From the IMG/VR virus record IMGVR_UViG_3300010354_000903, positions 1 through 20,106 of that record: DNA of 20,106 bases, one strand, 5' to 3'. The notes beneath the pieces were generated by a model, which saw only the letters and a program-made list of their open reading frames with translations, had not been told where the DNA came from and ran no database searches. The DNA is from a virus. This document shows, in pieces, positions 4,928 through 19,986 of the stretch. How positions within the stretch are numbered: the stretch's first letter is position 1; each line of letters begins with the position of its first letter. Position numbers and translations under genes: made by a program.

Positions 4928-6796
4928 ATGAAAGTGAAATATTTAAATAATTCAACTAGATGGGATATTATCCTGTTTGATTATCTTGATGATATTCCAA
5001 CTTCCGACACACCCAAAGTCGAAGTCCATACTGGAAACAAAGGAGTTGTTTCAATTGGCATATCAAGGTCAAAAGCTTCTATTCAAAATACAGCTAGCAT
5101 TCGCGTTGTAGGCGACTTACATCCAGCCTATTCGATTGGGAATTGGATTATCATTAAATCAAAGGTTGGCAAGTTTACAGAAAAAGACAAAAAGTTTACA
5201 GAAGTATCTCCTCTCAAAGAAGGAATAATTAGATTCATTGGGCAGATTACCACCATTGAAAACAGCTATTCAGTTGAAGGCTCTGGGATTCTTACCAAAA
5301 GAGCTACTATTCATATTAGAGAGTGGTCTAGTCTATTAAACATCCCCGTCCGTATTGATGCAAACTCGATTTCTAGCTACTTTCTTCAAACTCAAGAAGT
5401 GTTGGGTAGAGTTGGTTTGATTTCCGGTGCAAAAAAAGATTCAAAAATTAATATTGCAGAATTAGCACAAAAACTTATTGATCCGTTTGTAGGAGCAGGG
5501 CTGGTACTGTCTATTATTGGCGGCTTAAATACGGACACAAACACTGGAACAAGTTTAGGTGTAGATTTAGGAGAATATCAAAAGGTTGTGAGTATCTCTA
5601 AGCTTACCTCGCGCATGCCTAGCCTGCCCCAAGAGCTGCTGGATTATTTAGAGTTGCCTAAGTCAACTCAAACTAACAATGCGTTTGCAACAGGGTTCAC
5701 TAATACTTTATTGGGTGTAATGTCCGTTAGCGAATCATCTAAGCAAGAAGCTTTAGATAAATACGGCGTAGAACAACGCGACCCAAAATCCTTTAGCGGG
5801 TACTTTAAAGGCTATAACCAACTAAAGTCAATGTTTTTAAATTATAAAGACAGGCCGGCTAAAACAAACTTTCTCTCATCTTTGGGACAAGGCTCTTCAG
5901 CTTGGAGTTTAATTCAAGAGCATATTGACACCACAATCAATGAAGCTTTTACTGACATCTGGTATTTCAAGACAGAATCAGGGGCGACTACTTCCTTGCC
6001 TATGATTATTCTCCGTGATAAGCCATTTGCTCTTAAAGCGTTTCTGACAGACCCAGACAATCAAATTAGGCATACAAAGTGGACTGCGTTTGATGACTTG
6101 CCCAGAGTCTTCGCCGACGACACTATGATACAAAGCGTGTCTACAACAAACAGTTTTTTTACTTCTCCTAACTTTATTATGCCTCAGCTGCAAACAGGCG
6201 AAGTAGGTTCATCAAGAAACGACGACCCTACTACGGTATTAACAACAGCCGTACACCGTATTATTGATGATGGGGCTATTAACAGGTTTGGAACTATTGA
6301 GCATTACTGGAATACTGTTTACAGTGCCCCAACAGCCAAATCAAGCGAGTCGGGTGTTGTATATGTTCCATGGTTTGAAGATACTAAAAAACTAATGTAC
6401 TATTGGCATGCCTTGAGTTATCGTTTTGGAGATGCTAATTTGACTCTCAAGGATAATAACTTGCCAATTATGGTTGGTTGTAATCTATCTTTTCCTATGG
6501 GCAAGAATGTATTATGTGGTCACGTTGAGTCAGTAAATTGGAGTTTTAATATTGGTATGGACGGTATGGCATCTACAACAACCAATGTCCAGCTTTCTTA
6601 CTTGTGCAAAGCAAAGGATGACGGGTCCCTAACGCTGATTGGCCCTGCAGGTTTTACAGACTTGTTTGACCCAGAATTAGCCGATTCGGATATTAAAGAG
6701 TTATTTAAATTTCCTGAATTTAAAACAGAAATACCCAAAGCGCAAGAATTACTTCCAAAATTAAATTTACCTAAGTTACCGAAAGTACCATTCTGA
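4928..6796 (+). CDS. Baseplate hub protein (gp27/gpD/XkdQ-like)
   Basis: A 622-residue protein. The ATG lies 6 bases after AAGGGGA (4915-4921), which overlaps the preceding stop. The first 140 residues show the pattern of hub domain 1: a beta stretch ending in 'ASIRVVGD', a hydrophobic 'IGNWIIIKSK' strand, then 'GIIRFIGQITTI' and 'ATIHIREWSSLL'. In contractile tails this tube-like domain forms the ring that joins tube to spike. Residues 150-420 are a large mixed region. The C-terminal part, about residues 480-580, returns to beta strands ('GNVLCGHVES'-type segment, here 'GKNVLCGHVESVNWSF'), another hub hallmark. The last 40 residues are Lys/Pro/Leu-rich. It ends in a TGATG overlap with the spike gene, so the two partners are translationally coupled. 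No enzyme domain is visible. Confidence 0.72.
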   Translation: MKVKYLNNSTRWDIILFDYLDDIPTSDTPKVEVHTGNKGVVSIGISRSKASIQNTASIRVVGDLHPAYSIGNWIIIKSKVGKFTEKDKKFTEVSPLKEGIIRFIGQITTIENSYSVEGSGILTKRATIHIREWSSLLNIPVRIDANSISSYFLQTQEVLGRVGLISGAKKDSKINIAELAQKLIDPFVGAGLVLSIIGGLNTDTNTGTSLGVDLGEYQKVVSISKLTSRMPSLPQELLDYLELPKSTQTNNAFATGFTNTLLGVMSVSESSKQEALDKYGVEQRDPKSFSGYFKGYNQLKSMFLNYKDRPAKTNFLSSLGQGSSAWSLIQEHIDTTINEAFTDIWYFKTESGATTSLPMIILRDKPFALKAFLTDPDNQIRHTKWTAFDDLPRVFADDTMIQSVSTTNSFFTSPNFIMPQLQTGEVGSSRNDDPTTVLTTAVHRIIDDGAINRFGTIEHYWNTVYSAPTAKSSESGVVYVPWFEDTKKLMYYWHALSYRFGDANLTLKDNNLPIMVGCNLSFPMGKNVLCGHVESVNWSFNIGMDGMASTTTNVQLSYLCKAKDDGSLTLIGPAGFTDLFDPELADSDIKELFKFPEFKTEIPKAQELLPKLNLPKLPKVPF

Positions 6797-7668
6797 TGAG
6801 CAACATACCTTATGTACCATCAATTTCGGTTGGAGAGATAGTCGCTGTTCAGGAGCCAGCTTCTGATACAGACAGGGTGATTAAGTATTTTGTAAGAATT
6901 GAAACAGATAACGGAACATCAACATTTGTGTCAAATGTTGTTGCCTCTACTTTTATCGGTGGAATTGCAGACGGCTTCAAAATTTATCGTCGCCCAACCA
7001 CAGTTGACGATAAACCTTATCAAATCGACGATAAGACTCCGTTTGGCGTAGGTGAGAGGGTCATCGTTGCCTTTATTAATAATGATATTAGACGTGGAAT
7101 TATTATTGGTGGCTATAACAGAATTATAGACCTAATATCGCTTCCTGAGCCAGAAGAAAAAAAGCCTCAGATGCGCTTTCAGTATTTGGGTATGATTTTT
7201 GATATTGATACTAAGGGGCAACTAACGATTACCCATACAGGCGCACCTAAAATTACCGATAGTCCAAATGATGTTCCGGAAATTGATGAAAAAAAAGTTT
7301 CCATCTTAACTCTTAAAGATGACTCAAGTTTTGCATTTATAGACGCAAACAAACAATCTATTCTAGTCGATTCAACCAATAAAAAAATAGAATTTTCTTC
7401 AGATAAAGAAAAAATATCGATTGATCAAAAAGGGACTATTAAGGTTGATTCTACAAAAGAGGTAATAATTAAAGCTCCCAAAGTAGCATTAGGTACCTCT
7501 TCTACGGAATTGCTTGATTTAATCGATAAGTTATTAGAAGCGTTACAAAAAGCGGCGCCTCAGTTAGTTCAAACGGCGGTCGGCCCGGGGGCTATGGACC
7601 CTAACTTAATTTCATCGATTGTAGATATTAAAACAAAACTTTCCGAAATTAAAGGCAAAGTCGAATGA
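6796..7668 (+). CDS. Baseplate spike protein (gpV/gp5-like), no lysozyme domain
   Basis: A 290-residue protein whose ATG shares one base with the preceding stop (TGATG). It has only a weak ribosome site, so it probably depends on coupling. Residues 8-110 look like the OB-fold of gpV/gp5 spikes, including 'GVGERVIVAFINNDIRRGIIIGGY', matching the family pattern of a strand, a short turn and 'G.I.G'. Residues 141-233 are repeated short strands of the kind that wind into a trimeric beta-helix. Residues 236-290 form a helical tail with an 'AVGPGAMDP' turn, seen in several gp5/VgrG-like proteins. T4 gp5 has a lysozyme domain between OB fold and helix. Here only about 30 residues lie between them. 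No HxH metal-binding tip motif is present at the C-terminus, so a separate tip protein may exist. Confidence 0.75.
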   Translation: MSNIPYVPSISVGEIVAVQEPASDTDRVIKYFVRIETDNGTSTFVSNVVASTFIGGIADGFKIYRRPTTVDDKPYQIDDKTPFGVGERVIVAFINNDIRRGIIIGGYNRIIDLISLPEPEEKKPQMRFQYLGMIFDIDTKGQLTITHTGAPKITDSPNDVPEIDEKKVSILTLKDDSSFAFIDANKQSILVDSTNKKIEFSSDKEKISIDQKGTIKVDSTKEVIIKAPKVALGTSSTELLDLIDKLLEALQKAAPQLVQTAVGPGAMDPNLISSIVDIKTKLSEIKGKVE

Positions 7669-7703: not shown

Positions 7704-8810
7704 ATGAGCTTTAAAGCTTTAATGCAAGAAGGAATAAGTAGGCTAAGAAAAAATACAGCCGACGAGTCAGACGTAGAACTAGGAGCAGGTCCTACTCAAA
7801 GCCTTTTTGGAAATGTTATTGATAAAGCAATACAGAGTGTTCAAAAATCTAAAGAAGATGGTCCTTTTTATTCCGTTTCTGCAGAAAATTGGTATAAAAC
7901 TTTTCCGTATCGTTTTAGAATTGAAATTGATGGCATGCCAACTTTTTATTCTTTGCCCATACCGCCAGAAGCGTTGAATTATCAAATGATAAGCGCATCG
8001 CAATTAATACCCACTTTAGGCGGCGTTGTTGAAGAAACATCTGCAACGACTTTTTGGCAAATTTCTTTATCTGGAACAACTGGCATTGCAATTGCCAGAA
8101 AATACTCAGAAGACGCCAGCGTGGGTGATACTTTAAATATGCCTGCCTCAAAAGAAAATAGTTTTCGGCGAGTCCTTAAAGGCGGTGTTTTAGCTAATAC
8201 TTTTAATAAAGCCGCAAATGTATATGATGCAGTAACCGGAGCTTATGAGCAAGGTCCAATGGGAGCCGTTGGTTTGTTAGAAGGATTGGCTTCTACCGCG
8301 CAAAGATATAATTCATCCGCTGTTCCTACTAAAATTCCAGAAGAAAGCGCGTCATCAAGGACCGCAAACGCATTAGGAATAGATGCTTCTCAGCTTACAG
8401 ATGATTTAAAAACCAGCACCAATGGTTTTGTAGAGATTCATATATTGCATAACTTTTTAAATGCATATTCTCATATTAAAGAAACAAATCCAGAAAGCGT
8501 TAAGCTGTTCTTTGAATCTCACAAAGATAATATGGAATGGCAGATAATTATTAAAGGGTTTAGTTTTCAAAAAAACGCCGCGCAACCCTATCTGTATAAA
8601 TATAATATTGTTTTGCAAGGATTTGATTTAAAAGAAGTCGGAGCGTCCACAACAGGCGCGATTGATCGTTTTGGCGCAGGCGGCGATTTAGGCAACGTCA
8701 ACTCTTTTACGCTCGCGGGCGCTCTTGAAAGAGCAAACTCGTTATCAAAAAAATTAACGTCTTTAAGCGGGGTTACCAGTTTAATAGCATCAAAGCCACC
8801 TGTTTTTTAA
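7704..8810 (+). CDS. Baseplate hub/tube-junction protein, tube-like fold (predicted)
   Basis: A 368-residue protein with an ATG 7 bases after GGGGAG (7691-7696). Residues 65-128 run 'FPYRFRIEIDG', then 'SLPIPPEALNYQMI', then 'LGGVVEE' and 'WQISLSGTTG'. This is the strand order of the N-terminal domain in baseplate proteins that sit between hub and wedge (XkdP-type). About 100 Ala/Gly/Ser-rich residues (140-235) follow. Residues 240-310 then complete the fold with 'FVEIHILHNFLNAYSHI' and 'LYKYNIVLQGFDL'. The split fold with a long insert suggests a tube-like ring protein carrying a loop or helical arm. I see no LysM in this protein; one appears in the next gene. The assignment is by pattern and gene order; an exact family name is uncertain. 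Confidence 0.55.
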   Translation: MSFKALMQEGISRLRKNTADESDVELGAGPTQSLFGNVIDKAIQSVQKSKEDGPFYSVSAENWYKTFPYRFRIEIDGMPTFYSLPIPPEALNYQMISASQLIPTLGGVVEETSATTFWQISLSGTTGIAIARKYSEDASVGDTLNMPASKENSFRRVLKGGVLANTFNKAANVYDAVTGAYEQGPMGAVGLLEGLASTAQRYNSSAVPTKIPEESASSRTANALGIDASQLTDDLKTSTNGFVEIHILHNFLNAYSHIKETNPESVKLFFESHKDNMEWQIIIKGFSFQKNAAQPYLYKYNIVLQGFDLKEVGASTTGAIDRFGAGGDLGNVNSFTLAGALERANSLSKKLTSLSGVTSLIASKPPVF

Positions 8811-8819
8811 GGATTTTCA

Positions 8820-10376
8820 ATGGCTTATACTTATTTAGATCAAGTTTTGTCAGACTATTTAGGATATGTCAAAGTATCTAAAAACGCTGCGTTTACTTTG
8901 GCAGATGTGCCAACCATCGCTATTGATAGATGGGATTGGCTGGTTAAAAATTGGGAACTACGTTTTTATTCTAATTTTAAAAGAACTATTCCAAAATCAG
9001 ATTTTTTTATAGATTTACTAAAAAGCCTCAATAATGAGATAGTAACACAAAAGCTATTTTCTGTAACCAGCACAAACCCATTTTTAAATTCAATTAAATT
9101 TATTAAATATAAACCAATCTTATCGTATATTTCTCTTTCAGACATTGGTTTGACGCCATCGGAAGCCCTTGTTTTAAAAGAAGAGCAAAAACGCCTTGAA
9201 AATCTTTCTATTACAGATTTTAAAGACATGACCTTTTTTTTAAGAAACAGCGCTGCCGCAGCAGCGCAAACGGTTGGACTGGGCGATAATGACGGCGTGC
9301 TTGTTCAAGGATTTTCGTTAACGGAATCTCAGCGCAGATATTCAGTTCAAGAGCTGGAGCAAATTAATGATATTTTTGATTTAGCAGACGAAATTGATGG
9401 TATTATTTATTATTTGCAACAACAAACAGATAAGCAACCAAATTTGCTCGCTGTAGCTAACCGCAATACAGACCAAGATACTCAGGTTGTTTTTAATCAA
9501 TCCTACACAGCCGCAATTGCCGTTCCGTTTGTAGATTCTTTAGAGGCGATGGCAGACAAATACCTTAATTCAAAAGACAAATGGTTTGAAATTGCTACAA
9601 TTAATAATTTGCAACCACCGTTTGTTGATAAAACAGGTACAAAAGAGTATTTGCACGGCCCGGGAACTTTGGCTTCAGTAAAAATTTCATCAAATCAAGC
9701 AAACGCCCTCAAAGTTGGAACAAAAATTAAAGTTGGCTCGTATACAGTAAGAGAAGAAATTCGTTCTATTTTAAAAATTGTTAAATTTGATGATGGAACA
9801 ATGATACTTTCTCTTTCAGGCGCTCAAGATTTAGCCAAACTTAAACTCTCAGAAAAAGCCTACGTTAAAATCTATAAGCCTCAGACCGCAAACGAAGACT
9901 CTCTTCTTCTTATACCAGTTAACGCCCAATCTTCGCTTATTCAAAGCAAACAACCATCTTTAGATGTATTAAAAAGGCTCGACAAGGCACTTTTAGATTT
10001 TGGCGTAGACGTTAGGAAAGATGAAAAAACAGGCGAATTGCAAGTAGGAAAAAACGGAGATTTTGATATTGTTTACGGAATGCCAGCCGTAAGACAAGCT
10101 ATTTTTTCTATTTTAAATATTAATATCAATGAGTTGCCGTTTCATTCAAATTACGGAATTCCGTTTGCAAATATTATTGGAGAACGTTTTTACGGAAACG
10201 TAGAAGTTGCTGCAGCTTTTTCTGAAATATTACAAGCTGTTATATTTGCAGATGGCCGTTATTCAAAAGTTATTGTACAAAATCTTACAGTAAATGAAAC
10301 ATCAATTGCTATAAATCTTATTGTTACAGTAAACGGCTCCAACGTAATAATTCCATTGAGTTTCGTTTCAAGCTAA
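8820..10376 (+). CDS. Baseplate wedge protein: LysM-like plus gp25-like fusion
   Basis: A 518-residue protein with an ATG 6 bases after AAGGA (8809-8813). Residues 1-220 are mostly helical and not recognised; they include a Trp-rich 'DRWDWLVKNWELRFY' stretch and an 'AAAAA' helix. Residues 231-290 resemble a LysM: 'PFVDSLEAMADKYL', then 'W.EIATINNLQPPFV', then 'GPGTL'. Residues 412-518 match the gp25/GPW pattern: 'GDFDIVYGMPAVRQAIFSIL', a 'LPFHSNYGIPF' turn, a long helix, and final strands 'SIAINLIVTVNG'. In T4, gp53 (LysM-like) and gp25 are separate neighbours in the wedge core, so this protein seems to combine both roles. It would anchor the sheath start to the baseplate. The domain calls rest on motif resemblance, with gp25 the stronger of the two. 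Confidence 0.68.
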   Translation: MAYTYLDQVLSDYLGYVKVSKNAAFTLADVPTIAIDRWDWLVKNWELRFYSNFKRTIPKSDFFIDLLKSLNNEIVTQKLFSVTSTNPFLNSIKFIKYKPILSYISLSDIGLTPSEALVLKEEQKRLENLSITDFKDMTFFLRNSAAAAAQTVGLGDNDGVLVQGFSLTESQRRYSVQELEQINDIFDLADEIDGIIYYLQQQTDKQPNLLAVANRNTDQDTQVVFNQSYTAAIAVPFVDSLEAMADKYLNSKDKWFEIATINNLQPPFVDKTGTKEYLHGPGTLASVKISSNQANALKVGTKIKVGSYTVREEIRSILKIVKFDDGTMILSLSGAQDLAKLKLSEKAYVKIYKPQTANEDSLLLIPVNAQSSLIQSKQPSLDVLKRLDKALLDFGVDVRKDEKTGELQVGKNGDFDIVYGMPAVRQAIFSILNININELPFHSNYGIPFANIIGERFYGNVEVAAAFSEILQAVIFADGRYSKVIVQNLTVNETSIAINLIVTVNGSNVIIPLSFVSS

Positions 10377-10432: not shown

Positions 10433-10447
10433 GAGGAGTTGGGCGTG
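10433..10447 (+). promoter_or_regulatory. Ribosome binding site that fixes the start of the giant wedge gene
   Basis: GAGGAG (10433-10438) lies 6 bases before GTG (10445-10447). The upstream in-frame TTG (10439) touches the Shine-Dalgarno directly and cannot be used, so GTG at 10445 is the supported start. Confidence 0.75.
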
Positions 10448-13400
10448 ACCGTTACGATTAAATCTAAAGAGCAGCTGCTTGGTACTTGGGTTAGAAGAAT
10501 CAAGAATAATACTGATATTACCGACTTTCAAGCGGGCGGCGCTCTTGTTACGCTTATGGAAGCAATTGCTCAACAAGTTTATCAAGCGCAGCTTTCTGTT
10601 TTAAAGGTTCTTGAAGTTACCGAAGTTGATAACTTAACAGAAAAACGCCTTGATGATTTGGCTGAGTCTTTAAAAATTCCTAACGGACAGGGTGGCGTAG
10701 GTCGCCAAGCGTCGCTACAGGCAACTGGGTCCGTAGTTATTGGATCGGCATTTACAAAAATATCTACTCGTGCGTATGCAGGAAAACCTGCGCCATATGC
10801 AGGTTCAAGAGTTTTGTATGTTCAAGATGCTTCTGAAATGTATGCTAAAACTCCGGTAAATGGCAAAATTTATATTGGACGTAATACTATTGATTCTTTT
10901 GAGGGTCCAATTTCATATTCTAGTATTTCATCAACCGGAACATATTGGATCATTAATTTGGTTGATCCTCTTACAAAAGATCATCCATATACGGATGAGA
11001 TAGTGTTGGCTCAGGGAGGGGACAGAAACGTTAATGCGTCAACAGTAGTCCAAGTGCCCGCATATGCAGATGCTCCTGCAATTCAGTTTACAACCGACGC
11101 TGCAGTTATTTTGCCCGACGGGGAAGATTCTGTTACTGTACCGGTAACTTGTGCGCAATTTGGTCTTGTTGGGAATGTTGCTTCGGGAGCTATTACTGAA
11201 TTTGCGGCAGAACCATTTGCGGGCGCAGTTGTTATTAATCGGCAGGCATTTGTAAATGGCGCAGATACAGAGTCGGATGCATCTTTACGCCTAAGAATTA
11301 AAGACTATCCTAATACATTGGCTCGCGGAACCGTGGGCGCAATGAACGCAGCTCTTTTGTCGGTTGTCGATGCAGACACAAAAAAGAAAGTAACTTCGGC
11401 TTCGGTTATTCGTCCCCTTGAACAAGGTGAGCCGACAACCGTTTATATTGATGATGGTACGTTGCTAGAACCTGTTTTTGCTGGTCAAGACTACGAGCTT
11501 TTGTTGGCAAAAGCATCTGGCTTAGAGCAAGGATTTAAAACAGCTCAATCTCCAATTACCCCTGCAGTTGTTGCGGCGACTAAAGCAGCTCCCTATGTCC
11601 TTGAAGCGGGGATGACAATTACATTTTTAATTGATAATATCCCTTATGTTTACACCATTACCCCCACTAACTATAAAGACTTAACAGCCGCCACTGCGTA
11701 CGAACTCGTTCGTGATTTAAACGCAGACCCCGAAGGTATTTTAGATTTTCGCGTTACGGAAAATGGCACTAAAATTGTTGCAATAGATAGAACAAATGCC
11801 GCCGAAGAGGTAAAAGTTATTTCTAGCGACCTGCAAGATATTTTGGGTTTTCCGACTATTTCTCAACGTCCTATTTATCTTTATAAAAACGGTGTATTGC
11901 AATCTTTTAAGGGAAAAACCGCAACTATTTCCTCAAATCCATTTTCTAATTGGTCAATTACCGGCGCATCGTATACAGGACTTAAAGCAACGATTGATGG
12001 AGTGTTGGTAGATATTGCGAGTATTACCGACGCCGATTTTTTGTCTCGTTTTGGCATTTCGATGACTGTAGCAACAGCGGACAATTGGCGCGAAATTTTA
12101 CAGTCAAAAATTCCTGGGGTTACGGTAATTTTTCAAGACAATAGATTTATTATTACATCTAATAAAGAAAATAGCGCGTCCAGCGAGATTATCATCAGTG
12201 CAGGAACATGGATTGGCTCTGCCTCTATTTTTAGCTCTGCGCTTGCAGAACGCTCTTCTGTAGGAGCTTCAAAAGACTATACTTTTAATAGATATACCGG
12301 CGATATTCGTTTTGTCTCTCGGCTAACAGCCGGAGATATTATCGAAATAGCTTCTTTAAATACACGTGCATTTGTAAAATCAACAACAACTCCTACGGGC
12401 AAATATGACATTTCCGACGACTACCCGGGTTTTGGTCCAGCAAAATTTATTGTCGCGGTTGATGATTCCGTTTCTGTAAAAACGACTGGCAATCCAAACA
12501 ACGGAGTATTGCAAGTCACCAATGTTGATTTAAATCAATTAACCGTTTCGCTAAAAGACAAGCTTGGAAACGGTCTTTTTATAAATGCAGCAATTGGTGA
12601 TTATCTTTATTTAACTTCTATAAAAGAAAATTCTGTTACTCCGATTTCAGGCTTTACCAGCGTACCGGATGCAGCCGTCGGATTTTATAGAATTAAAAAA
12701 ATTATTAAGGGAACCTCTCCTTCTAATTCAGACACAGTAGTAATAGAGGTTTCTTCGTATCAAGCATCGGCTGGTTTTGTTTTAAATGATGAGTATGGAA
12801 CAGCTTATAAAGGTAGCTCAATATTTAAAATATTTTCTTCTGATTCTGTCCCCCAAGTAATTACACTGCCTAGCTCTACGGCGGCCTTGGTCGAAGATAT
12901 TGTTAATTCTATTAATAATCAAATTGTTGGTGCCGAAGCAGAAAGAAGCACTGGACAATATTTCTTTTTAAGAACAAATACTTATGTAAACGGATCTTTA
13001 TCTGTATTGGCAACTTTTGGAAAAGCGAGCAATATATTTACCGCGGCCTCAAAAGAAAATTTGCAAGCTCATGTAGGATCTTCAAACTCAAACGCTTTGG
13101 ATAACGGTTTTCCGGTTGTTACGGAAAGCGTTGTTCCGTCTTTGCCAGCCGCTGGCATGGCGTTTAGGGAATATTTAAAAATTCAAAAAAACTATACAGA
13201 TGTAACTCAAACGTCGCAAAATCCAATTATAGAAGCAGACAGTAGTATTACTAGCTATCCAATTGGGTTTCAAGAATTTTGGGTTACAGGTAAATTATTA
13301 GGTTGGACTGGCCGTTCTTACAATAATGAAACAACGGCTCCATACCAAGGATTTTTAAGAACAGACAGCACCATTCGCCCAATCGGCGCTATTACTGTTA

Positions 13401-16400
13401 CAACAAACAATATTAATAGATATTCTAATATTTCTTTTCGCATGCAAGATTTAGCGCTAACGCCATTTGATAAGTTCGTTGTAGAAATGGATTTAGACGC
13501 ATCAAATAAGACAGTTAATTTGCCACTTTATAAAAAAGCTATTGTTTCAAGTCAACAGCTTATTGGAGCTTCTGGGCGCGGACAAAAATATCAGTTTACC
13601 CTTAAAGACCCTGAAGATTTTAATAAAGAGTTTTTTGATGTTACTAGTCCATTTAAAAATTTTGATTTTAATGATTTTAAAGTAATTGGAAAATCGGTTG
13701 GTGTATATAAGCTTAATTCGTCGGGAGCTGGTCCAAGTGAAGCGGCATTGATTATCAGGTCTTCTTCGTTTGGCGGCGCAAACAGAATTAAACTAAATAT
13801 CTTATACCCACAATCTCCGTCTCAGCCAGACATTAAGATTTCGCATGCAAATGCGTATGGTACAGAAGAAGTTTTAACAACTGTAAACGTAGAAATGCCG
13901 TCTCAAGCGGTTATTCCGTCAACTATTTTTACTAGCGGAACTTATAAAGTTACCGGAGTCTCTACAGCCAACAATCTTACTGATATCACTTTGTCCACCC
14001 AAGCTGCCGCAATTACCGCAACAGCAAAAATGGAAGACTCCTTAAATTTTAATATCTCATTTTTAGCAAGAGCCAGCGGATTTGCTGGAGTTTTGGGTAA
14101 TAATATTGAGCTTGTAATTCAAGACAGTGGTCATACCGGAACGGTTGGAACCGTCCAAATGATTTCTCAATCAACTAAAAAAGTTGTTTTAGATTTAAAC
14201 GGATCTGCCCCAAATTCAACTGCACTTACAGCGGCTCTTGCTTCAAGCACATACCTTGAGTCGGCTTCGGGCACTGGAAATTTAACTCTTAAGGTTGGTT
14301 CTTACAATTACGTTGCAGAGGTTGCGGCAAAAATTACAAATCCATATTACACTTTAACTTTAAATCAGGTAGATTTTAATCCTAAAATTCGCGGAGCATC
14401 AGGAAATGCATGGTCCTTTAGGTGCATTGATACCGGCGGCTCTGGACCTGCAGTCGCATCAGTAAACACAGTTGATAAAATTGTTACTGTAGATTTAAAG
14501 GGTCAGCTAGACTTTCCGCTATCAAATTTACAAACCCTTCTAAATTCTACAGCCGGATTAAATGGCGCTATTTCGGTAGCCGGAACTTTTACAGTTGGCG
14601 GAAGTCCTGTTTATTTAAGTACATCCGCTCAAGCTTTTTTTACAGGCGGTGTTACAAAACAAAATACTTTGTATACAGCCGATGGCGTTGATGCAACCAA
14701 CGGTATTTTTGCATCTGGTTTATATTCTGTAAATAATTTGTTGCAAGTTTCAGGTATTCAAGAATCCGACTCAATGCCAATAGGTGTTTGGCCAATAGTT
14801 GAAAAACCATCTGTCTCAGAACTAAAGATTCGCGTTCCCAACTATAATGGCCTTAGCGCCGCGGTATTTTTAAATAAAGAGTTTAACGCATCTGAATATC
14901 AAATTCAATCATTTCCTATACTTTCAAAAACATTGCAAAATTTAGTAGACGCATTAAACGATTATTTGACAGATGCTCCCGTTGTTTCTGCCCAAGCGCT
15001 AGGGCTGTCTACAACCGATGTTTTAATGCCAAACGGCGCCCAAGTTCCAAGATCAACGTATGTAAACTATACCAATACAAGCGCATTACCATCATACGTA
15101 ACGACTCCATCAGAGGCGATTAAGTTTCATGCATTTGCGGCAAATCGTTCAGAAGGCGCATCTATTTACGAGTATAATCAGCTAGGCAACTCAATTAAAT
15201 CGGTTGTGCAATCAGTGGACTCAATTTTTCCTGCCGGCAATGCAATATTAGGCACCACCTACTCATCGGTCAACGAAGAGGTGTATTTGTTGCCAACTAA
15301 TACAGCAACGTTTAGTCGATGGGCAAACTTTGCTCCAGCTTCTGCAATGCCAATCCAAGCTACTATCAGTAGGGTTGAAAAAGCTTCAAAAGTTCAAATT
15401 TCTTCAAAATTAAGAGGTACAGAGGGAGCTGTTTACGCAAAAGAAACTCTTGCAAATCAATATAAAACAACGGTTTTAGACGCTGCGTCTGCAGAAAACA
15501 ACTCGGTTTATTTTCCGCTCTTAACTTCGCAAACTAAACAGCTGCCTAGAAGCTCATTAGTGCAAATTACAAATGCCCTTACAGCCGATTTGTTGCGTCC
15601 ATTTAGAGTTGCCTCCCCCGCTGCCAATATTACTGCAGCCAATACAGCAAACGAAAAAACTTGGGTTCGCAAAAACGCAAATATTATTTACGAAAAAACA
15701 AGCCATTCAAGCGGAAACGTTGGTAGATTGTATTTTTTAAGAAATGGTCAGTCTGCGACAATTGGAACAACTACTGTAACAGCAACTGAACCACTTGATT
15801 CAGGATTAATAAATATTCAAGCAAATACGCCGTCTAATGGTTTGGCTACAATTACATATACTGGAACTCAAACATTGTCCGCCAGAATTGGCGATATGAT
15901 GTATGTAAGTCAAGCGTCAGCATTTAGTTCGGAAGTTAAGTGTCCAAGTGTACCTTTGGGTCTTTCAATGAGCACATCATTTAATGGCCTAAGCGGTTAT
16001 GTAGGGTATCCGGTTGTGCAAGTTAATAGCGCAACAGAAGTTATTGTAATTGCACCTAATATTACTTCTAACAGTACGGGAGTTTCCGTTAGTTCTGGTA
16101 CTGATTTGGTGTTTGTTCCTATGCTGTTTACAGAAAAAAACATAAAGACCCACTACAGCGCTGGGCCAAAAGGCGTAGAGGTTACTGACTCTTTAGGGAC
16201 AAGCGGAACTCACGCAGAATGGGTTACAAATAAATATTCATATGGAATTCTTAAAAAACTTTCAGATGGGTTTTCTGCTCTTATATTATCAAACACTTCA
16301 GATAATACTTCGGTTCCGGTTGCTGCGTCAGACACGATGCTGCTCAGTGAATGCGGAGTAAACACAGACGATTATGTGTTTTTGAATGGGTTTGGCGCAG

Positions 16401-17458
16401 GCGCAGACGGTCAATACCAATTAATCGCTCATGATGGAAAAAACACCGCAATTCTTTATAATTCTACGCTGCCACTGGAAGACGTTGTGTATGACACAAA
16501 TATACGCAATACAAACGATGTGGGACAAACTTGGTGGGGAGCACAATTAAAAGTATCTGGGTATGAAAACCCATCTGCGCCCCCTTCTGGCTTTGGTATT
16601 GACCCGCGTCCAATACGAATTGTAGACGCAGAGTCAGTTATGGTTGGGTGCAAATTAAAAATTGCTTCAGCGGCTTTGGGAACTAGCGAGTGGTTTACTC
16701 AGTCTTTAGTCGGAGTATGGAATATTACAAATATTGGTATTTACAGTTCGCCTACGGGAATTTGTCAATTTATAGAATTTGAAATCCCGACTGGAGCACC
16801 AACTGGCACAGCCTTAATTAAGGTTAATCCAGCCAACGAAGAAAATTTATCATTTGTTGAAAAAGAACCGTTTAACGCATTTAGAATTGTACAAGGATGG
16901 TCTATTGATCCTAAAAATACAGAAAATTCGCAGGTTTATTTAACTCCGGCAAAATCTTATCAAAAAATTTCTAATGCTTTAGGTACAGAAATTCAATGCG
17001 TTCAAAAACTTGGATACGAAGCTGTTCCAAAAACAGGAATTGATGGTTATAAGATTTTTGGCGGACTAGTTCGCGAAGCGCAGCGCACCTTAGACGGTGT
17101 ACCAACATCTATTAGTAGGTACCCTGGGATTAAATCCACGGGCACAGACGTTTCTGTATTGCCGCCCATCCCTCGCGCAGTCGCTGTAACATTTAGAGTT
17201 CGTACAAGAGATGGATTGTCAATCAACGTTATTGCCGGCACCGTGCGATCATCGGTCGTTTCTTTTGTGTCGTCCTTAGGATTAGGACAGTCCGTAATTC
17301 TGTCGGAGCTAATTTCTCTCGTGCAGGACATCCCAGGGATTGTTTCCGTAGAAATTATAAACACATTACCGGTAGCGGTTGATGGAAAAATTGCTGTTGC
17401 CGATAACGAAAAAGCTGTTATTATTGATGCAGCCACAAACATTAGCGTTGGACAATAA
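10445..17458 (+). CDS. Giant baseplate J/gp6-like wedge protein
   Basis: A 2337-residue protein from the GTG chosen by its ribosome site. Residues 1-85 are a helical N-terminus ending 'LTEKRLDDLAESLKIP', usual for J proteins. Residues 215-305 hold the J core: a beta stretch, 'GLVGNVASGAI', then 'FVNGADTESDASLRLRIKDY...LARGTVGAM'. The last 95 residues, from about 2243, are the J C-terminal domain ('VAVTFRVRT', 'LGLGQSVILSELISLVQDIPGIVSVEI'). J-like proteins are commonly 300-400 residues, T4 gp6 about 660. Here roughly 1,900 residues are inserted between core and C-terminal domain. The insert is beta-rich, Ser/Thr/Asn-rich, with repeated modules and no visible enzyme motif. It would form the wedge ring around the hub; the insert may extend outward or bind fibres (inference). 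Confidence 0.75.
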   Translation: MTVTIKSKEQLLGTWVRRIKNNTDITDFQAGGALVTLMEAIAQQVYQAQLSVLKVLEVTEVDNLTEKRLDDLAESLKIPNGQGGVGRQASLQATGSVVIGSAFTKISTRAYAGKPAPYAGSRVLYVQDASEMYAKTPVNGKIYIGRNTIDSFEGPISYSSISSTGTYWIINLVDPLTKDHPYTDEIVLAQGGDRNVNASTVVQVPAYADAPAIQFTTDAAVILPDGEDSVTVPVTCAQFGLVGNVASGAITEFAAEPFAGAVVINRQAFVNGADTESDASLRLRIKDYPNTLARGTVGAMNAALLSVVDADTKKKVTSASVIRPLEQGEPTTVYIDDGTLLEPVFAGQDYELLLAKASGLEQGFKTAQSPITPAVVAATKAAPYVLEAGMTITFLIDNIPYVYTITPTNYKDLTAATAYELVRDLNADPEGILDFRVTENGTKIVAIDRTNAAEEVKVISSDLQDILGFPTISQRPIYLYKNGVLQSFKGKTATISSNPFSNWSITGASYTGLKATIDGVLVDIASITDADFLSRFGISMTVATADNWREILQSKIPGVTVIFQDNRFIITSNKENSASSEIIISAGTWIGSASIFSSALAERSSVGASKDYTFNRYTGDIRFVSRLTAGDIIEIASLNTRAFVKSTTTPTGKYDISDDYPGFGPAKFIVAVDDSVSVKTTGNPNNGVLQVTNVDLNQLTVSLKDKLGNGLFINAAIGDYLYLTSIKENSVTPISGFTSVPDAAVGFYRIKKIIKGTSPSNSDTVVIEVSSYQASAGFVLNDEYGTAYKGSSIFKIFSSDSVPQVITLPSSTAALVEDIVNSINNQIVGAEAERSTGQYFFLRTNTYVNGSLSVLATFGKASNIFTAASKENLQAHVGSSNSNALDNGFPVVTESVVPSLPAAGMAFREYLKIQKNYTDVTQTSQNPIIEADSSITSYPIGFQEFWVTGKLLGWTGRSYNNETTAPYQGFLRTDSTIRPIGAITVTTNNINRYSNISFRMQDLALTPFDKFVVEMDLDASNKTVNLPLYKKAIVSSQQLIGASGRGQKYQFTLKDPEDFNKEFFDVTSPFKNFDFNDFKVIGKSVGVYKLNSSGAGPSEAALIIRSSSFGGANRIKLNILYPQSPSQPDIKISHANAYGTEEVLTTVNVEMPSQAVIPSTIFTSGTYKVTGVSTANNLTDITLSTQAAAITATAKMEDSLNFNISFLARASGFAGVLGNNIELVIQDSGHTGTVGTVQMISQSTKKVVLDLNGSAPNSTALTAALASSTYLESASGTGNLTLKVGSYNYVAEVAAKITNPYYTLTLNQVDFNPKIRGASGNAWSFRCIDTGGSGPAVASVNTVDKIVTVDLKGQLDFPLSNLQTLLNSTAGLNGAISVAGTFTVGGSPVYLSTSAQAFFTGGVTKQNTLYTADGVDATNGIFASGLYSVNNLLQVSGIQESDSMPIGVWPIVEKPSVSELKIRVPNYNGLSAAVFLNKEFNASEYQIQSFPILSKTLQNLVDALNDYLTDAPVVSAQALGLSTTDVLMPNGAQVPRSTYVNYTNTSALPSYVTTPSEAIKFHAFAANRSEGASIYEYNQLGNSIKSVVQSVDSIFPAGNAILGTTYSSVNEEVYLLPTNTATFSRWANFAPASAMPIQATISRVEKASKVQISSKLRGTEGAVYAKETLANQYKTTVLDAASAENNSVYFPLLTSQTKQLPRSSLVQITNALTADLLRPFRVASPAANITAANTANEKTWVRKNANIIYEKTSHSSGNVGRLYFLRNGQSATIGTTTVTATEPLDSGLINIQANTPSNGLATITYTGTQTLSARIGDMMYVSQASAFSSEVKCPSVPLGLSMSTSFNGLSGYVGYPVVQVNSATEVIVIAPNITSNSTGVSVSSGTDLVFVPMLFTEKNIKTHYSAGPKGVEVTDSLGTSGTHAEWVTNKYSYGILKKLSDGFSALILSNTSDNTSVPVAASDTMLLSECGVNTDDYVFLNGFGAGADGQYQLIAHDGKNTAILYNSTLPLEDVVYDTNIRNTNDVGQTWWGAQLKVSGYENPSAPPSGFGIDPRPIRIVDAESVMVGCKLKIASAALGTSEWFTQSLVGVWNITNIGIYSSPTGICQFIEFEIPTGAPTGTALIKVNPANEENLSFVEKEPFNAFRIVQGWSIDPKNTENSQVYLTPAKSYQKISNALGTEIQCVQKLGYEAVPKTGIDGYKIFGGLVREAQRTLDGVPTSISRYPGIKSTGTDVSVLPPIPRAVAVTFRVRTRDGLSINVIAGTVRSSVVSFVSSLGLGQSVILSELISLVQDIPGIVSVEIINTLPVAVDGKIAVADNEKAVIIDAATNISVGQ
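14063..14560 (+). repeat. Two copies of a beta module within the J-like protein
   Basis: Protein segments at about residues 1210-1275 and 1314-1380 (GTG numbering) share a pattern: 'G..GN' (GVLGNNIE and GASGNAWS), a 'D.G' turn, 'VG/SV', then 'KKVVLDLNG' versus 'DKIVTVDLKG', then 'LTAALASS' versus 'LQTLLNST'. The likeness is at protein level and imperfect, suggesting an old tandem duplication. Boundaries are approximate. Confidence 0.5.
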
Positions 17459-17460
17459 AA

Positions 17461-19986
17461 ATGTCAAATGTTCGTCAGTATTTGCCAAAAGTAGCAAAAC
17501 CAAATAAGGAAGATGCTCCGTTTGTAAATGCATTTTTAGACGGCGCAGATGATATTGTTGGGCAGCTAGAAGCCTTTGTAGAATATGCTCAAAATCAGTT
17601 TTTCTTTTCTACCGCAGATGCTGAATACGTTTTTAAATTGGCTGCTCGCGATGGTTTTTATCTGCCAAAAAACTCAGGATTAAACATCGAAGGTTTAAAA
17701 CCACTTGCACCTTTGATGATTAATCAGCCTAAAACAACCCTTGCGTTATTAGCGCAAATTCTTGAAATTTATTTTTCTCAGAGCTTATGTCGTCCTAGTA
17801 TTATATGTGCTCAGGCAGAGCCGTATAAATTAAAGGCAAACGATGAATTTATTGTAAAAACAAGAGAAGTCACTCACCGTTTAACAATTGACGAAAAGTT
17901 GTTTTCAAATATTAAAAACGTAAGTGCTTCGGAGTTATCAACGTATATTAACTCGGTACAAGACCATTATTTAGCCACCGTTTATTTTGACAGAGGCGTA
18001 AACAAAAACAAAATTAGGCTTATTCCAAACGGAGCGGGGGCCAACGAAATTATTCAAATTTTAGGTGGTACTTTACAAAATTTGCTTTTATTTCCAGATA
18101 TTGTACCAACAACTAACACAACTCAAACGGTTTGGGAAGTGTCTAAAGTGTCTGATTATACTGACATTATAAAATTTCAATACGTAAATGGCCCTATTCC
18201 AAATATCTTTCAGGCATCGATTGGAGATATTGTTACGTTTAGAAATTTGTTTGACGTGGGCGCGTCTGGCACAGCGCGACTTCCTATCACAAACGAACTT
18301 GGCGACGAAATTATAGATAATAACGGCGATATAGTAACAGTTGAAGTTGCTCTGGTCGAAGGAAATTATTCTGTTTTAAATGGCTCTTTTGATGTAATTG
18401 AAGTTGGATATGATTATTTTTCTATTAGAAATAGATTTTTAAAACTACCAATCAACAATCAAGGTTTAGTCGTTCAGCTCTCGTCTAGAGATGTTGTTTT
18501 TACAAAAAATATAGCTCAACGGGTTTATCAACAGCCTAATTTTTCTTATTTAACTGAAATGACCGATGACCAGCTAACGGTGACTGTTCCAGCAGTACCT
18601 CCGATTGTAAAACGATTCCTTGAAGGATCGTGGCATATTTACGGAGTAAAACATAGAATACAAAGCTTTACGCGCACATCTGTACAAATCAATCCAATTA
18701 CAAGTGTTCAGCTTCCAAACAGCGGAAATGTGTTTGTATTACAGTCGTCTAAAATTGTTTCGGACTACTCAAGCAAAAAATTTAAAATTAGTACAATCAA
18801 TCAAAGTACAGGAACTGTTTCTTTAGACCTTTCTGACTCATACAGCGTATTGCCCTATACGACGCCATTTTTGATTGGCGAAAATCCGTTTAAGTGCAAT
18901 TTTGGCAGCACCGATGTAGAAATTGAATTTCCGTACCGTCATGGGTTGTTTGTGGGCGCAAAAATTATAATTAACTCAGCAGCAGCAAACCCAGAAAGCG
19001 GATTAGTTTTAAATGGATCTTGGCGGGTTAGCAAGGTTTTAGATCAATATAAAGCCATTATATCAACCAACCAAAAAAACGTTGCTCCGCCGTCTTCGGT
19101 CACGGGCGTTTTGTATAGTTTAGGCAATAAAAGATACAGAATAATTTACTCCTCTAATGCATCTTTGATTTTGTCAAAGTTAAACTCCGTAGGAAAACAA
19201 TTTAGACTGTATGATGATGGAACTTCAATTATAAATAATAATTATATATGGGAAAAATTAAAAACTCGCATACAAACGGTTGATTTTGTTGGAACAAATA
19301 GTGTAGAATTTGAAAGCTTGGACAACCTGTCTGTTCTCGTTGGGGAAACAATCGGCAGTGCAGTAAAAATTCAAACTTCCGCAGTCGAATGGGGCGGCAG
19401 CTCTGCTACATACTATTTTGATAGAACAGATTTAGAAAATATAGATTTGCTAAACAATTTAGAGTTAATTATTGCAGATTTTGTTAAGCCGGAAAGTTCT
19501 TTGCTTTTAGGTTCATATATATACGACCCACGCGGAACGTATTATAAATTTTTACCAAGCTCAATCGGAACCTCGTCCGTTTCTCAAATATTAAAGGGAG
19601 AAAGTGGAGTTATTTTGTCTGCTGCGGACACCGATGGCTTTGACCCAAACGGCGGCTATCTTATTTTTGATTATGGAACAGGGAATGCCGAAGGGCCGCT
19701 GAAATATCTTGCTCTTTCGGGCGATCAAGTGGTAATAGACCCGTCTTACACATTTCAAAAAACACACTCGATTGGTTCTACTATTCGCGTTGTAAAACAG
19801 CTAAGTCCGTTTTCTCCAAACGAAAACGGCAAACAATATCAACCATTTGCCACCGGCACGTCATTAGCTAGAAACAGTTTTTTTGAAATTTTAAAATCAG
19901 TGGTTTCCGCTGGAGTTTTTATTCAAGAAGATGTATTATTTCCAGAGCTACGGTTTGTTGACGACAGCCTAAAGCCTTATGAATAG
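17461..19986 (+). CDS. Baseplate wedge protein, gpI/gp7-like partner of J
   Basis: An 841-residue protein that begins 2 bases after the stop of the J-like gene and has only a weak ribosome site, so it is probably translated by coupling. Residues 20-75 are helical, with 'DGADDIVGQLEAFVEYAQNQFFFSTADAEYVFKLAARDGF', which resembles the N-terminus of tail protein I-type proteins. From about residue 215 the protein is beta-rich. It contains three imperfect repeats centred on 'LNGSFDVIEV' (306-315), 'LEGSWHIYGV' (387-396) and 'LNGSWRVSKV' (517-526). The role as partner of J in the wedge follows from gene order (J then I, or gp6 then gp7) and the N-terminal resemblance. It is much longer than a simple gpI (about 180 residues in P2) and nearer to T4 gp7 in size. 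A fibre-attachment role is possible. Confidence 0.6.
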   Translation: MSNVRQYLPKVAKPNKEDAPFVNAFLDGADDIVGQLEAFVEYAQNQFFFSTADAEYVFKLAARDGFYLPKNSGLNIEGLKPLAPLMINQPKTTLALLAQILEIYFSQSLCRPSIICAQAEPYKLKANDEFIVKTREVTHRLTIDEKLFSNIKNVSASELSTYINSVQDHYLATVYFDRGVNKNKIRLIPNGAGANEIIQILGGTLQNLLLFPDIVPTTNTTQTVWEVSKVSDYTDIIKFQYVNGPIPNIFQASIGDIVTFRNLFDVGASGTARLPITNELGDEIIDNNGDIVTVEVALVEGNYSVLNGSFDVIEVGYDYFSIRNRFLKLPINNQGLVVQLSSRDVVFTKNIAQRVYQQPNFSYLTEMTDDQLTVTVPAVPPIVKRFLEGSWHIYGVKHRIQSFTRTSVQINPITSVQLPNSGNVFVLQSSKIVSDYSSKKFKISTINQSTGTVSLDLSDSYSVLPYTTPFLIGENPFKCNFGSTDVEIEFPYRHGLFVGAKIIINSAAANPESGLVLNGSWRVSKVLDQYKAIISTNQKNVAPPSSVTGVLYSLGNKRYRIIYSSNASLILSKLNSVGKQFRLYDDGTSIINNNYIWEKLKTRIQTVDFVGTNSVEFESLDNLSVLVGETIGSAVKIQTSAVEWGGSSATYYFDRTDLENIDLLNNLELIIADFVKPESSLLLGSYIYDPRGTYYKFLPSSIGTSSVSQILKGESGVILSAADTDGFDPNGGYLIFDYGTGNAEGPLKYLALSGDQVVIDPSYTFQKTHSIGSTIRVVKQLSPFSPNENGKQYQPFATGTSLARNSFFEILKSVVSAGVFIQEDVLFPELRFVDDSLKPYE

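Follow-up and report, generated by a model that had tools for sequence, protein, structure and literature searches.

A giant J/gp6-family baseplate wedge protein interrupted by about 1,890 residues, from a family of graded sizes and exchangeable modules

The virus record IMGVR_UViG_3300010354_000903 (20,106 bases, the whole of which is called the window here) carries a tail operon on the + strand, the strand of J, its parts and its immediate neighbours. The operon includes an open reading frame (ORF) at 10445–17458 that encodes a protein of 2337 amino acids (248.8 kDa, isoelectric point 5.1). Our results strongly support the view that this product, referred to as J, is a wedge protein of the Baseplate_J/gp6 family (PF04865, PHROG 6) with a very large insertion. 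The recognisable J pieces lie at the two ends of a single frame, with about 1,890 residues between them. An earlier reading of the DNA without database searches (the sequence-only reading) had called a J/gp6-like wedge protein with about 1,900 residues between its two J pieces, and both statements are borne out. The giant J is not a one-off but a member of a family of graded sizes.

J pieces at both ends of one intact frame

Profile searches against J families, part of the check proposed in the sequence-only reading, found a J domain at either end of the protein. The N-terminal J core, assigned from Pfam, PHROG and structure profiles, covers residues 1–342 (10445–11470). Within it, PF04865 matches residues 200–295 (E 4e-15, 56 bits vs a cut-off of 21) and PHROG 6 matches residues 168–350 (profile positions 119–301, E 9e-23). 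A second, colinear PHROG 6 match (profile positions 294–398, E 9e-8) falls at residues 2215–2326 (17087–17422), so that the profile leaves off at about residue 350 and picks up at about residue 2215 with almost nothing missing between. The C-terminal piece of the window J has no Pfam match, the PF04865 model alone missing it; in the genomes of five relatives, PF04865 positions 194–255 do match the C-terminus of the same frame. Comparison of the family profile with the phi812 wedge protein ORF62 (348 amino acids) gave three colinear blocks, at ORF62 residues 6–83, 125–206 and 249–317, which indicates that the insert replaces a stretch that in ordinary J proteins is about 40 residues long. From the PHROG 6, PF04865 and ORF62 alignments, the insertion in the J fold runs from about residue 343 to 2236 (11471–17152).

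The predicted structures agree with this assignment. The AlphaFold model of residues 1–1165 has a mean predicted local distance difference test score (pLDDT) of 70.6, rising to 82 over residues 1–290 and 361–870; the low values at 291–360 would be expected of strands whose partners sit in the C-terminal piece. In a Foldseek search with this model, all 20 PDB matches at E<=0.001 were baseplate wedge proteins, drawn from phi812, phiCD508, Bas63, A-1(L), Mu, PhiTE, diffocin, Pa193, T4, 7-7-1, Milano and PVC; the template modelling (TM) scores by target are modest (0.15–0.37), the model being a truncated multi-domain chain. For residues 1150–2337 the mean pLDDT is 52.6, whereas the last 98 residues, which form the C-terminal J domain (2240–2337; 17162–17455), reach a mean of 85. 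This domain resembles the C-terminal domain of the R-pyocin J protein PA0618 (PDB 5ces; TM 0.68 by target, root-mean-square deviation 3.1, probability 1.00, although E is only 0.057), and the Foldseek list for residues 1150–2337 was used for this domain only, the rest being of low confidence except for short stretches. The C-terminal J domain of the sequence-only reading is thus recovered both by PHROG 6 and by fold resemblance.

The best sequence-profile and Foldseek matches are phi812 ORF62, phiCD508 gp65, Mu gp47 and T4 gp6, which have the core fold and the C-terminal domain in common with the window J. T4 gp6 is linked by Foldseek alone (E 3e-5), as direct hhalign to its sequence gave no match, and a single-sequence PDB search with the whole J protein returned chance nanobody matches only. 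The top structural matches in BFVD are large J-like proteins of uncultured phages (for example UniProt A0A6J5KUV1 and A0A6J7WUL1; 28–33% identity), which are labelled 'Baseplate protein J-like' by automatic annotation and on which we found no paper. Taken together, Pfam, PHROG 6, solved-structure profiles and AlphaFold/Foldseek rule out that the protein is not a J protein. What sets it apart is size: solved standard J/gp6 wedge proteins are ~350–660 amino acids long and have tens of residues at the insert site, compared with ~690 to ~1,900 or more in the window family.

The gene starts with GTG at 10445, its stop codon ends at 17458, and the motif GAGGAG at 10433–10438, located by counting from the GTG, is its likely ribosome-binding site. 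Unusual length alone would speak for a sequencing or assembly artefact, or for two genes joined through a frame error, the latter being a possibility that the sequence-only reading had itself raised. When this was checked, the frame proved intact in many relatives. In a first scan, nine further IMG/VR records, two or more of which are near-identical in sequence, matched J over its full length at about 70% identity and encode 2307–2487 amino acids in an unbroken frame. Each of eight relatives' records of 162–182 kb contained just one J frame in a Pfam J search, as did four others of 108–121 kb. Comparison of the window J with three relatives gave a proportion of nonsynonymous differences (pN) of 0.05–0.32 and of synonymous differences (pS) of 0.60–0.87 in every 200-residue segment; pN is lowest towards the two termini, and the long middle evolves more quickly than they do. 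Given that the frame is kept in independent contigs and that amino-acid changes are strongly suppressed along the full length, J is not a sequencing fusion. The identical frame in independent contigs of several metagenomes and in an isolate, the colinear J pieces within single frames of relatives' genomes and the purifying selection throughout leave an artefact with a negligible probability, and we rule it out: the ORF is a real single gene, neither a chance frame nor a frame artefact. As a separate observation, the J gene of one family locus (L035:2449-9416) reads as two overlapping ORFs of 1475 and 852 amino acids, a frame break that may be real or a sequencing error.

A fixed proximal unit and a variable, modular middle

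A distant scan placed J in a family of about 60 viral loci, here numbered with the prefix L, together with the isolate Myxococcus phage Mx1 (L002). The family proteins range from 1133 to 2523 amino acids; both ends are always kept, and the middle grows stepwise. Family comparison revealed a proximal unit, residues 1–640 (10445–12364), in every full-length member including the 1133-residue forms. The N-terminal J core that the sequence-only reading had ended at about residue 305 is indeed recognisable, although the conserved unit reaches about residue 640. The first ~300 residues of the insert, up to residue 640, are therefore a fixed family trait, while the remainder is modular and variable.

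Residues 361–873 (11525–13063) are confidently predicted (mean block pLDDT 82) as a chain of domains rich in beta structure, with 36% strand and 15% helix, and for this part the earlier description of the insert as beta-rich holds. Profile self-comparison identified a tandem pair of modules of ~100 residues each within the chain, at residues 373–472 (11561–11860) and 492–599 (11918–12241), with an hhalign probability of 96% and E 4e-9. The 'repeated modules' of the sequence-only reading come down to this one clear pair, as neither self-BLAST nor profile self-comparison detected any other strong internal repeat in J. A weak hint of a repeat between residues 712–771 and 1981–2116 in the profile self-comparison was not counted. 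Behind the chain, residues 875–1007 (13067–13465) are modelled by AlphaFold with very low confidence and may be flexible or simply unresolved.

No kelch match was found in the window J protein; relatives carry kelch-type beta-propellers of ~350 residues inside J at two sites. In nine relatives (L022, L025, L028, L029, L034, L039–L041 and L062) the propeller is inserted at site a, corresponding to window residues 760–787 (12722–12805), and in three others (L019, L020 and L021) it lies at site b, at about window residues 1790–1958 (15812–16318). Pfam confirmed kelch repeats in all three relatives scanned (L062, L029 and L020), and phmmer with propeller queries recovered the propeller in 10 of the 12 propeller-bearing relatives. 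A different addition, 156 extra residues at window residues 1230/1231 (14132–14137) in L009, L010 and L013, consists of two tandem modules of the form 'HGYxxGQ.V...NGTF.I'. In a tree of the J core, the site-b propeller forms make up one clade, the site-a forms fall mostly together with L062 apart, and the short forms group together.

The Mx1 protein annotated 'baseplate protein J-like' (WNM70274, in OR576727) is a homologue of 1925 amino acids with ~23–27% identity. It matches window residues 6–1128, 1610–1831 and 2135–2335, and its central part falls short of that of the window J by about 400 residues. Mx1 is a contractile-tailed phage of 169.6 kb, whose genome announcement is silent on the J protein (PMC10720576). 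In Mx1, and also in L014, a propeller lies in a downstream gene instead of in J, and the propeller within J of L020 aligns with the one in the next gene of Mx1. The propeller is confined neither to J nor to the next gene, since L022, L028 and L034 have both.

Possible role of the insert

J proteins in general form the wedge ring, bind a gp25-like initiator and open on firing. By this model, the window would belong to a large contractile-tailed phage related to Mx1, with the ORF at 10445–17458 as its single J wedge protein. Both J ends would fold together into an ordinary wedge core that makes up the ring encircling the hub, attaches to the gp25-like sheath initiator and opens at tail firing. 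After about residue 342 the polypeptide would loop out into ~1,890 residues, mostly of beta domains, before the C-terminal J domain begins at about residue 2237. We lean, by a small margin of confidence, towards the view that these loops make a cage or skirt, comparable to but larger than those of the bacterial proteins Alg11 and Cis11, that makes contact with the host and acts as a gate on firing. By analogy with these two proteins, the loops may hang below or around the spike and touch the host surface, where glycans would be a natural target for propeller and immunoglobulin-like modules, and by opening they may contribute to setting off expansion of the ring and contraction. With 12 copies per baseplate, a number assumed from other J proteins, the insert would add roughly 2.5 MDa.

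The analogy is drawn from two contractile injection systems. In AlgoCIS, an extra domain of the J-like wedge protein Alg11 (domain IV, residues 278–643) builds a hexagonal cage that surrounds the spike, has two carbohydrate-binding modules and tilts outward upon contraction (PMC8894135), and Anabaena Cis11 likewise has a cage domain (PMC8894136). A 2026 study has the cage open after fibre binding but before iris expansion, and suggests a second receptor contact (PMC13314943). Like the window J, whose insert lies between the J core and the C-terminal domain, both proteins carry a large insert, possibly at a comparable point, and Alg11 ends in a domain VI of ~97 residues, about as long as the C-terminal J domain of the window. 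Size and origin differ: Alg11 is 1012 amino acids long with a cage insert of ~366, against 2337 with ~1,890 in the window, and Alg11 and Cis11 belong to bacterial injection systems, whereas the window is from a phage. Neither shows a sequence match to the window J, and the Foldseek matches are insignificant (E ~0.008–0.08, probability 0.03–0.04).

Several points weigh against a cage or skirt. The published cages are inserts of ~366 residues, all from bacterial injection systems. We recognised no cage or adhesin domain in the window insert, nor did it match any Pfam or PHROG family; residues 1150–2337 gave no sequence match in the PDB, and AlphaFold leaves the insert beyond residue 1007 mostly unresolved, as the low mean pLDDT of its C-terminal half model indicates. 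The short relatives of 1133 amino acids work with a far smaller insert, and therefore most of the insert is not essential to baseplate function. Moreover, it is just as conceivable that the insert juts out laterally and serves as a platform to which fibres dock. The sequence-only reading had offered arms, a shell round the hub, a fibre of its own or a host-contact layer; the kelch or small beta modules in relatives' inserts and the spike cages of Alg11 and Cis11 lend such roles indirect support, while the window's own insert provides no recognised domain for them.

The sideways platform is the most serious alternative, possible although clearly less likely than a cage or skirt. The insert would then replace peripheral wedge proteins of the T4 gp7/gp8/gp10 type and dock fibres encoded downstream, without host contact. 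Fusion of neighbouring wedge genes does occur in the J family, for example of the tube initiator and gp25 in Mx1, L017 and L020, and large genes (841 and 824 amino acids) lie downstream of J in the window lineage. Yet the kelch propellers fixed in relatives, like their tandem small modules, resemble surface-binding parts rather than a docking scaffold, and the long middle of J evolves faster than the ends.

That the insert is the main receptor-binding device, with J acting as its own fibre, seems improbable to us. The propellers within J of twelve relatives are in its favour, and wedge proteins can bind hosts, as shown by Gp119 of Bacillus phage Vp4 (831 amino acids, baseplate wedge 3, with carbohydrate-binding modules), which binds cells (PMC11406892). 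Gp119 is BW3, another wedge component than the J/gp6-like BW2, although it is likewise enlarged by host-contact modules. However, at nearly every locus whose contig continues past J, separate large genes follow, some with a propeller of their own, which makes it probable that there are dedicated fibres or adhesins, and the window insert has no known adhesin domain. Finally, a large, functionally neutral accretion or a polyprotein-like spacer processed during assembly might be read into the low-confidence stretch 875–1007 and the graded family sizes, but we give it almost no credence, given that pS exceeds pN by a wide margin throughout, the middle segments included.

Whichever of these roles the insert has, the J family itself is known, and J proteins with a large cage insert are already in the literature on bacterial injection systems. 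The phage form, oversized and with modules that are swapped, seems not to have been described: our searches of open-access papers turned up none on this phage J family, on its graded sizes or on the exchange of its propellers, although such a negative cannot prove absence. It is the opening of a ring made of J proteins that fires contractile tails, and in this family the protein grows stepwise from 1133 to 2523 residues and takes exchangeable propellers at two places. The family thus offers a natural series for studying how host sensing couples to firing, and whether spike cages, until now reported from bacterial injection systems, occur in phages too. As Mx1 grows on a laboratory strain of Myxococcus, the question is directly testable. 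A bolder idea, which we hold only as a rather unlikely speculation, is that the firing-ring protein itself is an evolving host-recognition layer, with a cassette site in J that swaps propellers and small beta modules. If true, receptor sensing and the contraction trigger would be united in one polypeptide, and not relayed from separate fibres.

Neighbouring genes and related loci

The J gene lies in a tail/baseplate operon beside a gene for a gp25-like sheath initiator. This neighbouring wedge gene (8820–10376, 518 amino acids) encodes the gp25-like domain (PHROG 975/120) at residues 401–506 behind an N-terminal part of 400 residues, and is preceded by a gene at 7704–8810 for a tail-tube initiator-like protein of 368 amino acids, identified by a tube-initiator match in Pfam/PHROG. 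The next baseplate gene after J (17461–19986, 841 amino acids) has no family match; residues 28–385 of its product match the N-terminal part of the Mx1 kelch protein, and it is likely to be a further wedge or fibre-docking protein. Among 50,697 phage records, Mx1 is the sole match of the gp25-like gene and of the gene at 17461–19986, and the sole long match of J, which also gives short matches to the mycobacteriophage Bxz1 group.

Relatives in genome contigs were absent from the first scan, and the second yielded only two contigs of metagenome-assembled genomes (MAGs) of unrelated taxa. These J relatives are on short contigs binned in a Rhodospirillaceae MAG (L065) and a Saccharibacteria MAG (L066), and are probably misbinned phage contigs. 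As both come from unrelated taxa and are likely stray phage contigs, no host is claimed.

Some minor observations concern the genes around J. The gp25-like initiator is apparently fused to tube-initiator and LysM-like parts in proteins of 806–868 amino acids in Mx1 (L002:6374-8794), L017:7408-9921 and L020:6869-9475, while a separate ORF of 139 amino acids just before J (L054:9580-9999) may be a stand-alone gp25-like form. The product of 17461–19986 and the Mx1 kelch protein (L002:20769-23717) match at the front and differ at the rear, where Mx1 has the kelch part, which is another module swap beside J. Very large proteins (1552–2317 amino acids), possibly fibres or adhesins, are encoded downstream of J in L038:14757-19415, L042, L037 and L043. 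In the window itself, a protein of 290 amino acids encoded at 6796–7668 has a sub-threshold match to Phage_base_V, the oligonucleotide/oligosaccharide-binding (OB) domain of the spike, and is probably a tail spike or hub component.
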